Under the pieces are notes generated by a model that saw only the letters and a list, made by a program, of their open reading frames with translations, had not been told where the DNA came from and did not search any database. A program made the position numbers and the translations under genes. A stretch of 64,000 nucleotides of DNA from Allorhodopirellula solitaria (GTDB lineage Bacteria; Planctomycetota; Planctomycetia; Pirellulales; Pirellulaceae), in assembly GCF_007859855.1 (NCBI RefSeq), contig NZ_SJPK01000001.1, forward strand, positions 287,664-351,663, read 5' to 3'. Positions 38,511 to 42,647 of this stretch are shown here, one piece after another (position 1 is the stretch's first letter; each line of letters starts with the position of its first letter).

Positions 38511-41500
38511 ATGGAAGACGACGCCCTCGAAAGCAGCCAGGATGGCGAAACCGACGGCAAACTTCATATCGTGGGGGTCGGCGCTTCCGCGGGCGGGCTC
38601 GAAGCACTGGAGTCTTTTTTTCATGCGATGCCTGCCGATTCAGGCATGGCATTTGTCGTGATCCAGCATCTGTCGCCCGATTTCAAAAGTCACATGGAGG
38701 AGTTGCTGAGCCGGCAAACAAGCATTCCCGTCCACCGTGCCGAGGACGGTGCGAGCGTTCAGGCAAACACCATCTATCTGATACCGCCGAACAAAGAGAT
38801 GGTGATCAGCGACAGTAGGTTGCGGTTGACTGAGCGAAGTAGTGACCGTTCCCAGATCCACCCCATCGATCAGTTCCTCACTTCGCTGGCCGCCGATCAA
38901 GGTGACCGTGGACTCGCTGTCATTCTGTCGGGTACAGGCAGCGACGGGTCACGCGGCATCGCCGACGTCAGCCATGCCGGTGGCCTGGTGCTGGCCCAAG
39001 ACGAACATTCCGCCAAGTTCGATGGCATGCCCATGAGTGCCAATGCGACGGGCAAGGTCGATCTCGTGTTGCCACCGGCAGCGATCGCTGAATCCCTCGT
39101 TGCCTACGCGCAGGAGGGCCTCACCAAGGAGCAGTTGGAAACCCACGTTCTCGAATCGAGCAGCGTCGAAGGCATTGAACGAATCGCGGCCTTGCTCAAC
39201 CAACGATACGGCCTCGACTTCTCACAGTACAAATCGGGCACGGTAGGTCGACGCGTCCAACGCCGCGCGACACTGACGGGCTGCGAATCCATCGAGGACT
39301 ACATTTCCCTCCTAAGAACGGATGATACCGAACTCAACAATCTGTACGAAGATCTTCTGATCGGCGTGACGAAATTCTTCCGCGATCCCGAGGCGTACGC
39401 AATACTCAAGCGTCAGGTCATTGCCAAGCTATTGCGGGACGCGGTCGACGAACCCGTCCGAATCTGGGTAGCTGCATGTGCGTCGGGCGAAGAAGCGTAC
39501 TCGATTGCGATTGTGGTCGATGAGGAGTTGCGAAAATTGGACCACGAGGTGGAAGTCAAGATTTTCGCGACCGATGCCCATCAGGGGTCCCTTCAAATCG
39601 CGGCCAAGGGCGTGTACTCCACCGAGGCGTTGAGCGAACTGAGTGACGAGCGAGTGTCTCAATACTTCACCCGCGCCAGTGACGGCTACCATGTCAACCG
39701 ATCGCTTCGAAATTACGTGGTCTTCGCTGCTCACAACATTATCGATGACGCTCCGTTCACACAGATGGATCTCGTCTCGTGCCGAAATATGCTGATCTAT
39801 TTGCAACCGGCCGCACAACGGCAAGCGCTGGGCATGTTTCACTTTGCTTTAAAAGCCAAGGGCACTCTGTTTCTCGGCCCGAGCGAATCGCCCGGCGAAC
39901 TCTCGGGCGAGTTCAAAACGATCGACAGCAAATGGCGGTTTTACACTAAGCGTCGAGATGTCCGCTTGGCGATGGGTGTGCGATCGTCGCGCAAGCGGAG
40001 TTCTGAGAAACTCCCTCGGGTCACACTTCCCACAGCGGCCCCTCGCAGCAATCGAGTCGATCCGGAGTTGATCAAGACGTACGATCAAGTCCTCGCGCGG
40101 ATGATGCCATGCAGTATCCTTACCAGTGAGACCGGCGATGTTCTCCATGTGTTCGGCGGCGCTGAGCGTTTCATGCAAAATCGCGGCGGCCGCCCTTCCA
40201 ATCATTTGCTCGAGGTGATTGACGATTCGCTGCGGACGTCAGTCTCGGTAGCTTGGCATCACGCGATGAAGAAGGAGTCTGCCGTACGCGATAGCTCGAC
40301 CACATTTGAAAGCGGCAACGGCAACGAAGATGTCCGCATCACCGTCACGCCGATGTCCGACGGCGACACCGGTCCCAATAATTTTCTGATTGCGATCGAA
40401 GTAACCGGGAAGGAAACGACGCACCCCGATCCGATTGACGCTAGCCATCGCGAAATGCACCGCACGCGCGTCGAGAGCCTCGAGAGCGATCTGCAAGTCT
40501 CTCAGGAGAACCTACAATCCGCCCTCGAAGAGATGGAGTCGTCCAACGAGGAATTGCAGGCTAGCAATCAAGAACTGATCGCTTCGAATGAAGAACTGCA
40601 GAGCACGAACGAAGAACTGCACAGCGTCAACGAGGAACTGTACACCGTCAACGCCGAACATCAGCGCCGGGTGGAGGAACTCGCGACCGCCAATGACGAT
40701 ATGGAGAATCTGCTTGCCACCACGCGGGTCGGTGTGATTTTCCTCGACAAGGACTTATACATTCGAAGGTTCACGCCAGAAATCTCGAAGGTCTTTCAAT
40801 TGTCCAGCGAGGATACTGGGCGATCGATGGAGCATTTTGCGCACGCCTTGAATCATCCTGATCTCGTCGATGAGCTCCGTAAAGTGCTCGAGACCCAAGA
40901 GGAGATGGAGGTGAAAGTGACCGATCGCTACGGCACTTACTTCCTGCTCCGTGTTCTGCCATATCGCAGCGGTGACACGACCGAAGGCCTCGTGCTAACA
41001 CTGATCGACATCAATTCACTCGAAGCAGCAGCGGCTGAAATTCACCTGCAGAAGCTGGCTATCGAATCTGCGGTCAATGGAATCGTAATCACCGATCCTC
41101 ACCAGAACGATGACCCCATCGTTTATGCCAATCAAGGGTTCCTCGATCTCACCGGTTACGAACGTAACGAGGTGCTCGGCCGCAATTGCCGCTTCTTACA
41201 GTGCGAAGATACCAATCGCGATGCGGTATCCCGAATTCGCTCATCGATGGACGAAGGTGTCGCTGCACGGGTGGCCATTCTCAATCACCGCAAAGATGGC
41301 TCGTCATTTTGGAACGATCTCAGCATCACTCCGGTGCGGAACCAAGCAGGCGAGATTGTCAATTTTGTGGGGGTCCAGCACGATGTGACAGCCCAGGTGG
41401 AAGCGCAGCAACGACTCGAAGACGCGAATCGGGCCGCCGAACAAGCCAGCGATGCGAAAAGCTCTTTCCTGGCGACGATGTCCCATGAACTGCGGACACC

Positions 41501-42647
41501 CCTGACTGCGGTCCTCGGATTCGCCGACATTCTCCGTAACGAGTCGGATGATCCAGAGTATCTCGAAAAGATCGACACGATTCGCCGCAACGGGGCTTAC
41601 TTGCTCGCCTTGCTCAACGACATTCTCGATTTGTCTAAAATCGAAGCGGGCAAGCTGTCCTTCGGTAGGGAGAGCATCGACGTCCGGGCTGTGCTGAAAG
41701 AGGTCGAGATTCTGTTGCAGGTTCGTGCCGGGGAAGCCGACGTGCCGCTCCGTTTCGACCTTCGCCAACCCCTGCCTGTCGCTGTGACGGCCGACGAAGT
41801 CCGCGTGCGACAGATCCTCGTCAATCTCATCAGCAACGCGATCAAGTTCACTGAAGACGGGGAGGTTGTCATCGAGGCGAAGATGAGCAAAGTGCCTGAG
41901 GGCGAAACGGCATCCCAGCTGGAGATTTCTGTCGTGGATACCGGAATTGGGATCTCAGAAACCCAGCTCACTGAGCTTTTCACGCCATTCAATCAAGCAC
42001 ACGTCCAAACCACCCGCCATGCTGGAGGTACAGGACTCGGACTCAGTATCAGCAAACGCCTGGCCGAGGGGATGAATGGAGCGATCGAAGTGGAGAGCGA
42101 ACTCGGCAAGGGAAGTCGCTTCACCTTGATCCTACCGGTTACCGCCGAGCAGTCCCAAAAGTTGATTGGGGAAGCCGAGCTCGACGCTTTCGAACAGTCC
42201 AAACGGCCGTCGGAGTTTCCCCAGCTTCGTGCCAAAATCTTGCTCGCCGATGATCGCCGCGATGTGTGGCTCGTCGGTAAACACTTCCTGGAAAAGTGCG
42301 GAGCCCAGGTGAAGATCGCTGAAAACGGCCAGCAAGCAGTGGAGATGATCGAGTCCGCTGCAAAAGAGGACGCCCCATTCGAGTTGATTCTGATGGACAT
42401 GCAGATGCCTGTTCTCGATGGGCGGCAAGCCGTTGCGAAATTGCGTGACCTCGGGCATGCGACGCCGGTTATCGCTCTGACCGCGGATGCCATGGATGGT
42501 GAGCGTGAGGCATGCATCGAAATGGGGTGCGACGAGTATTTCCCGAAGCCGATCGATGGCCTGCTGCTGACGAATCTGATCGCCGACATGCTGCAGCGTG
42601 CTGGAGCCGAGGCCAGTGCGGATGATGGTCGCGATCCGACGTCATAG
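38511..42647 (+). CDS. CheB-CheR-PAS-LOV-histidine kinase-receiver fusion protein
   Basis: This 1378-residue protein joins six modules. Residues 18-200 are a CheB methylesterase domain (Ser26 in GASAGG, His53, then SGTGSDG). Residues 220-480 are a CheR methyltransferase ([13 protein letters not shown] binds SAM). Residues about 650-735 are the coiled coil with repeated SNEELQ/TNEELH units typical of CheB/CheR fusions. A PAS domain spans about 736-845. Residues 851-960 form a second PAS with the LOV photosensor signature GRNCRFLQ (Cys893), Asn in LNHRKDG and FWND, and Gln956 in GVQHD, all flavin-contact positions. A HisKA/HATPase unit follows, with His992 in SHELRTPL. The C-terminal receiver has Asp1296 in LMDMQMP. 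No N-terminal CheB receiver exists. It would sense blue light and signal by phosphorylation; targets of the Che domains are not in the window. Confidence 0.92.

Follow-up and report, generated by a model that had tools for sequence, protein, structure and literature searches.

We analysed a window of 64,000 nucleotides of DNA from Allorhodopirellula solitaria, in which one open reading frame encodes CheB and CheR adaptation enzymes, a LOV domain and a hybrid histidine kinase in a single chain. LOV kinases and CheB-CheR hybrids are each already known; for their combination in one chain we found no report in the literature searched. We tentatively propose, at a little short of an even chance, that this protein is a hybrid kinase that senses blue light and carries the enzymes for its own adaptation; a conserved helix next to CheR would serve as the CheR/CheB substrate. 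The features of the fusion are as follows.

38511 to 42647, + strand: whole open reading frame, a CheB-CheR-PAS-coil-PAS_10-LOV-histidine kinase-receiver fusion of 1378 amino acids
38571 to 39098, + strand: CheB methylesterase domain, residues 21-196, lacking an N-terminal receiver (Pfam, 2e-56)
39174 to 39938, + strand: CheR methyltransferase (CheR_N 222-271, CheR 286-476; Pfam, 8e-50)
40113 to 40403, + strand: putative PAS-like domain, residues 535-631 (predicted strand and helix order in a low-confidence model; no match in a Pfam search)
40479 to 40652, + strand: highly conserved helix, residues 657-714, proposed to be methyl-accepting (conservation, motif tally, predicted helix)
40701 to 41012, + strand: PAS_10 domain, residues 731-834 (Pfam, 5e-23)
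41055 to 41393, + strand: LOV domain, residues 849-961 (Pfam, NCBIfam, PDB matches, predicted fold)
41187 to 41189, + strand: codon of Cys893, the putative flavin-adduct cysteine of GRNCRFLQ
41454 to 42143, + strand: histidine kinase with HisKA His992, N box 1105 and G boxes 1143 and 1172 (Pfam, motif positions)
42237 to 42575, + strand: C-terminal receiver, Asp1296 (Pfam, 8e-20; motif position)

The window protein contains a LOV domain

The sequence-only reading of this DNA had claimed a LOV signature at 41061-41400, residues 851 to 963 of the fusion, to be checked by domain search and by alignment to LOV domains including YtvA and phototropin. Sequence, profile and predicted fold agree with that claim. 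The NCBIfam profile YtvA_fam matches residues 849-978 (profile positions 4-133 of 243; E=2.3e-45) with 155 bits, which for this single domain lies below the whole-protein cut-off of 250 bits. A PDB search gave 160 distinct sequences at E ≤ 0.001, and among the best 60 of these the top matches were LOV domains, led by 9vf7 (1.3e-39), with aureochrome, YtvA and phototropin chains ranking lower. In the four PDB alignments inspected NCRFLQ was placed on NCRFLQ, so Cys893 lies in register with the LOV adduct cysteine and the concern that it might be off register does not apply. All four residues named in the earlier reading were found at their positions: Cys893 and, filling what we take to be the flavin-contact positions, Asn925, Asn935 and Gln956. 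The predicted LOV fold, modelled with six related LOV domains, reached a pLDDT of 89.1 and has a helix on each side. With this model as the Foldseek query, the best 50 of 1277 matches were LOV domains or LOV-derived constructs, and YtvA (2pr5) superposed at 1.2 Å over 121 columns. The match is far beyond chance, and it is near certain, on the strength of these comparisons, that the domain is a LOV domain; as such it would be expected to bind flavin and to undergo a photocycle.

Pfam further places PAS_9 at 856-961, HisKA at 982-1047, HATPase_c at 1095-1211 and Response_reg at 1243-1355. The features of a hybrid histidine kinase are thus all present, namely the HisKA histidine, the N and G boxes of the HATPase and the receiver aspartate; we assume that the catalytic motifs of CheB, CheR, kinase and receiver have the roles assigned to them here. 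The LOV domain had been called the second PAS domain of the chain, which holds by Pfam; counting the predicted domain at 535-631 as well would make it the third PAS-like unit. Known LOV histidine kinases, Brucella LOV-HK (6ph3) and Meiothermus Mrub_1259 (9vf7), likewise carry a LOV domain in a histidine kinase and are among the best sequence and fold matches.

Fusions with a LOV domain make up a subfamily

A LOV domain was present in 14 of 69 fusion rows, which cluster on the CheB-CheR tree; since the loci chosen were those that best matched queries with a LOV domain, the sample is biased and 14/69 is not a natural frequency. Counted by helix, the fetched loci held 67 distinct fusion helices; for 13 of these the LOV match exceeded 100 bits, and two tree rows share one helix. 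On a tree of the CheB-to-PAS_10 core, which excludes the LOV columns and was built by a quick method that leaves many forks open, the LOV label required 3 changes, compared with a mean of 13.1 after shuffling, and none of 500 shuffles gave a number as low. This pattern fits one LOV gain and two losses (L011 and L050). From these sequence comparisons the LOV versions form a subfamily of the CheB-CheR fusion, and we rejected the view of the LOV domain as a one-off fusion on the same counts. The nearest LOV fusion, that of Aporhodopirellula aestuarii (L010), is 61% identical over 827 core columns and reads GRNCKFLQ. One LOV member, L013, is labelled Robiginitomaculum (Pseudomonadota) yet falls among Pirellulaceae sequences, which may reflect a binning error. 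Viral contigs were also searched for close relatives, and none was found there. A large LOV survey, that of Glantz et al. 2016, may list a LOV-CheB-CheR architecture.

The Cys and both Asn are kept in all 14 LOV fusions and the Gln in 13; next to the Cys, R is changed to K in L010, and after it FL to LM in L042. This retention of all four residues in 13 of 14 fusions makes it highly improbable that the domain has given up photosensing to act as a redox or structural PAS domain instead, even though Gln956 is replaced by Leu in L015 and no LOV match was obtained for two sequences within the LOV clade.

A highly conserved helix joins CheR to PAS_10

Between CheR and PAS_10 a continuous single helix is predicted at residues 648-737, in a low-confidence model. 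Six Glx-Glx pairs lie along it seven residues apart, at 673, 680, 687, 694, 701 and 708, with Gln at 687 in the window protein itself. The comparison of conservation covered the segments from CheB to PAS_10 in 58 sequences sharing less than 70% identity with one another (0.43 on average over all pairs). Among these segments the helix (columns 656-713) varied least, at a mean entropy of 0.75 bits; the corresponding values were 1.29 in CheB, 1.61 in CheR, 1.91 in PAS_10 and 2.63 in the stretch 500-635. Pooled over the 58 sequences, the 12 Glx positions held Glu 683 times, Gln 12 times and Asp once, counts that are not independent events because the rows are related. For comparison, the columns in 15-655 where the window protein has Glu, pooled in the same way, held 39% Glu, 12% Asp, 7% Ala and 4% Gln.

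The main methylation sites of E. coli receptors are seven residues apart, and methyl-accepting sites of chemoreceptors follow a short consensus and a ten-residue one. The pattern [EQ][EQ]xx[AST][AST] occurred three times in 5 of 69 helices, four times in 59, five times in 4 and seven times in 1, compared with 0.33 times per 1000 amino acids outside the helix in the same sequences, although helix composition alone raises the helix figure. A stricter form with Ala was found at least once in 62 of the 69 helices. The ten-residue consensus, which requires small residues on either side, was matched by 5 helices and by none of the other 64, and at pairs 701 and 708 the window protein has Val at the last motif position. 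By sequence, most heptads of the helix resemble the short methyl-accepting motif.

The main rival to self-methylation is a structural role, in which the helix would be purely a signalling coil, conserved for packing against CheB and CheR or for dimerisation, with the two enzymes regulating by contact or forming a parallel output. The Asn before each pair and several heptad Leu are as invariant as the Glu pairs, and since this Asn is absent from the ten-residue consensus, another constraint must act as well. A pure coil accounts less readily for the fact that 12 of the 13 departures from Glu, in related rows, are to Gln. The AlphaFold model of residues 1-975 (pLDDT 61.5, pTM 0.32) is too poor for contact between helix and enzymes to be judged from it.

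CheB and CheR retain their catalytic residues and stay with the helix

Both enzymes are present in one chain with their catalytic residues. Ser26, His53 and Asp145, presumably the CheB triad, are the same in 38/38, 38/38 and 54/54 of the aligned rows holding those columns, and in CheR the residues R291 (68/68 rows), D355 (68/68) and C424-R425-N426 (69/69) are invariant. This conservation, above all in CheR, argues for catalysis and against a coil whose neighbouring enzymes act by contact. The CheB serine motif was found in 37 of 39 frames with more than 200 amino acids before CheR. It was missing from L008 and from one L010 frame, sister rows on the tree that both keep CheR and the helix, a retention that would be expected of a structural element. 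L008 (6948-11069, contig C9 of the same genome) encodes a paralogous fusion of CheB, CheR and kinase in which CheB has no GASAGG serine motif and the NEEL helix and CheR are kept. Taking the evidence on both sides together, we regard the purely structural role as rather unlikely.

Searching 117 genomes with the helix alone gave 47 places in 30 genomes; the C9 paralogue was not among the matches at the threshold used. In each of the 30 loci fetched from these 47, the window included, CheR lay directly upstream of the helix, and in 29 it was in the same open frame. Because this co-occurrence is within one family, it indicates that the parts stay together and is not proof of modification.

The same CheB-CheR-helix-PAS_10 core is found in CheB-CheR fusion proteins that are often annotated 'chemotaxis protein CheB' or 'CheR family methyltransferase', both in Planctomycetota and on plasmids of Pseudomonadota, Bacteroidota, Rhodothermota and Cyanobacteriota; a Nonomuraea plasmid match has CheR and the helix, with CheB in a separate frame. 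Of 263 matching plasmid records 14 loci were fetched, and 12 of these show the helix with NEEL-type repeats; within 100 amino acids each has between 2 and 7 short motifs. The strict Ala motif is absent from 5 of these 12 helices, and none of the 14 loci has the LOV signature. Elsewhere, three genomes each hold three fusion or helix-matching frames within about 7-11 kb (G071:C6 524926-533796, G097:C2 707562-714492 and G364:C1 5425559-5436727), which suggests multi-gene arrays.

Chemoreceptors in the genome and in the order

The sequence-only reading had noted no other chemotaxis gene nearby, and for two families this now extends to the whole genome (99.92% complete): searches for MCPsignal (PF00015) and for CheW gave no match, nor did the fusion protein itself match PF00015 in Pfam. 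CheR is matched four times in the genome, in three fusions (the window, C9 and C17) and in one stand-alone gene. On contig C6, near 216551-216784, a 406-amino-acid open reading frame (L122) matches FliG_C with 30.6 bits (cut-off 23.3), and the adjoining frame looks, by eye only, like FliH. This sequence match suggests that the genome has flagellar genes, and flagella without a chemotaxis array would be possible.

The order was surveyed in 296 genomes, several of them incomplete, with two fusion candidates scored per genome and thresholds of E ≤ 1e-60 for the fusion and E ≤ 0.001 for MCPs. The fusion was found in 77 genomes and an MCP in 217; 56 had both, 21 the fusion only, 161 an MCP only and 58 neither. 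Among the 14 genomes with a LOV fusion an MCP match was present in 9 and absent from 5 (G000, G558 and the genomes of L012, L014 and L016), completeness not being given for six of the 14. In one genome of the order (G079:C71 10310-17073) a CheB-CheR fusion and an MCP gene are about 3.4 kb apart, and some fusions may have receptor partners.

These figures bear on whether the fusion works on MCPs in chemoreceptor adaptation and takes light as an additional signal. The 56 of 77 fusion genomes with MCPs, together with the neighbouring MCP gene just described, speak for such a role, whereas the A. solitaria genome has no MCPsignal or CheW match and the MCP match is likewise missing from 5 of 14 LOV-fusion genomes, the completeness of some of which is not known. 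We therefore rejected an MCP-directed role in the genome of the window; it is refuted there, save for MCPs that lie in missing sequence or have diverged too far to be recognised, and for the fusion we give it hardly any probability.

A second way to account for conserved CheB and CheR residues in a genome with no MCPsignal match is that the enzymes act in trans on another, non-MCP protein, which would control or be controlled by the LOV-kinase part. CheR methylation of a signalling protein that is not a receptor, the response regulator PhoP, is on record, with arginine as the confirmed site (PMC8546571). Action in trans leaves it unexplained that the helix adjoining CheR varies less than CheR and CheB do. 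The surroundings of the fusion are ordinary, with SurE upstream and DUF1559, a GH10-like protein and SAICAR synthetase downstream, and the eight neighbouring proteins scanned include no obvious partner for CheB or CheR. We consider action in trans to be quite unlikely.

A stand-alone CheR/CheB cluster as a control

Contig C5 of the same genome (L009, 6901-13300) holds stand-alone CheR and CheB genes flanked by two large hybrid kinases. Similar clusters occur in six other genomes of the order, with a kinase helix like EELQxQxEELRVSNEELEEQ, and the helix of the partner kinase has no methyl-accepting motif. In kinases linked to CheR/CheB, EE stands at three doublets in 7 of 7, whereas among 14 unlinked homologues EE was kept by 2, 9 and 4 at doublets 1, 2 and 3, respectively. 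Here 21 of 23 places were fetched, and unlinked means that no CheR/CheB match was found in the fetched stretch, which at 3-12 kb is short enough for such a neighbour to have been missed. The linked kinases also match the query better overall (at least 236 bits, against 75-93 for the unlinked ones), so the contrast may reflect one evolutionary event. Doublet 1 was not Glx-Glx in 10 of the 14 unlinked homologues; doublets 2 and 3 were Glx-Glx in 27 of 28 cases, so exchange within Glx is not unique to CheR-linked helices, which favours the structural role at two of the three doublets. As a control for helix methylation the stand-alone clusters, judged from their sequences, thus give a mixed result.

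A proposed model for adaptation within one chain

CheR and CheB both look intact, no chemoreceptor was found in this genome, and the receptor-like Glx helix to which the two are covalently joined varies less than either of them. The most economical interpretation is that CheR and CheB would act on this helix as their substrate, with methylation tuning the light-driven kinase. Blue light would form an FMN-Cys893 adduct in the LOV domain. By analogy with known LOV kinases, the C-terminal LOV helix would relay the change to HisKA, and the phosphorelay from His992 to Asp1296 and onwards would be altered by light. CheR would methylate the Glx pairs of the helix, in cis or across the dimer, and CheB would demethylate or deamidate them. 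The resulting change in helix charge may shift the set-point of the kinase, so that the light response would adapt as in chemoreceptor methylation, with no MCP involved. More speculatively, the receiver could stand in for the one missing from CheB and so close a feedback loop.

We regard self-methylation of the helix as possible, if somewhat doubtful. We extend the proposal, more guardedly, to CheB-CheR fusion kinases in general, which may be self-contained adapting sensors whose NEEL-repeat helix accepts methyl groups in the same molecule or dimer, giving sensory memory without chemoreceptors. In favour we count the 21 of 77 fusion genomes without a detected MCP and the NEEL repeat in plasmid fusions of other phyla, and against it the 56 genomes that do have MCPs. 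The fusion shares with the MCP adaptation system the enzyme pair CheR/CheB and heptad-spaced Glx pairs in a long helix, the latter being, on the receptor side, a feature we take as given; it differs in having no MCPsignal domain, in a genome with no CheW match, and in carrying kinase and enzymes in one chain. Salmonella CheR alone showed no automethylation, according to PMC8546571, which we count against self-methylation.

Neither a LOV-CheB-CheR fusion nor such self-methylation was found in the literature searched, most subscription papers lying outside its reach; the same holds for the available portions of PMC5812497, PMC4844311, PMC2829493, PMC2890560 and PMC8546571. PMC2890560 lists RC1_3878 of Rhodospirillum centenum as a CheB-CheR hybrid.

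CheB-CheR fusions are widespread in bacteria and are often annotated as chemotaxis proteins even where, as here, a search finds no chemoreceptor. If the helix is the substrate, this would answer what the fusion enzymes act on, and sensory adaptation would be packed into one chain. The LOV subfamily would then be a naturally light-switchable, self-adapting histidine kinase, in which the light switch would allow kinase activity, methylation and adaptation to be followed in one purified protein.
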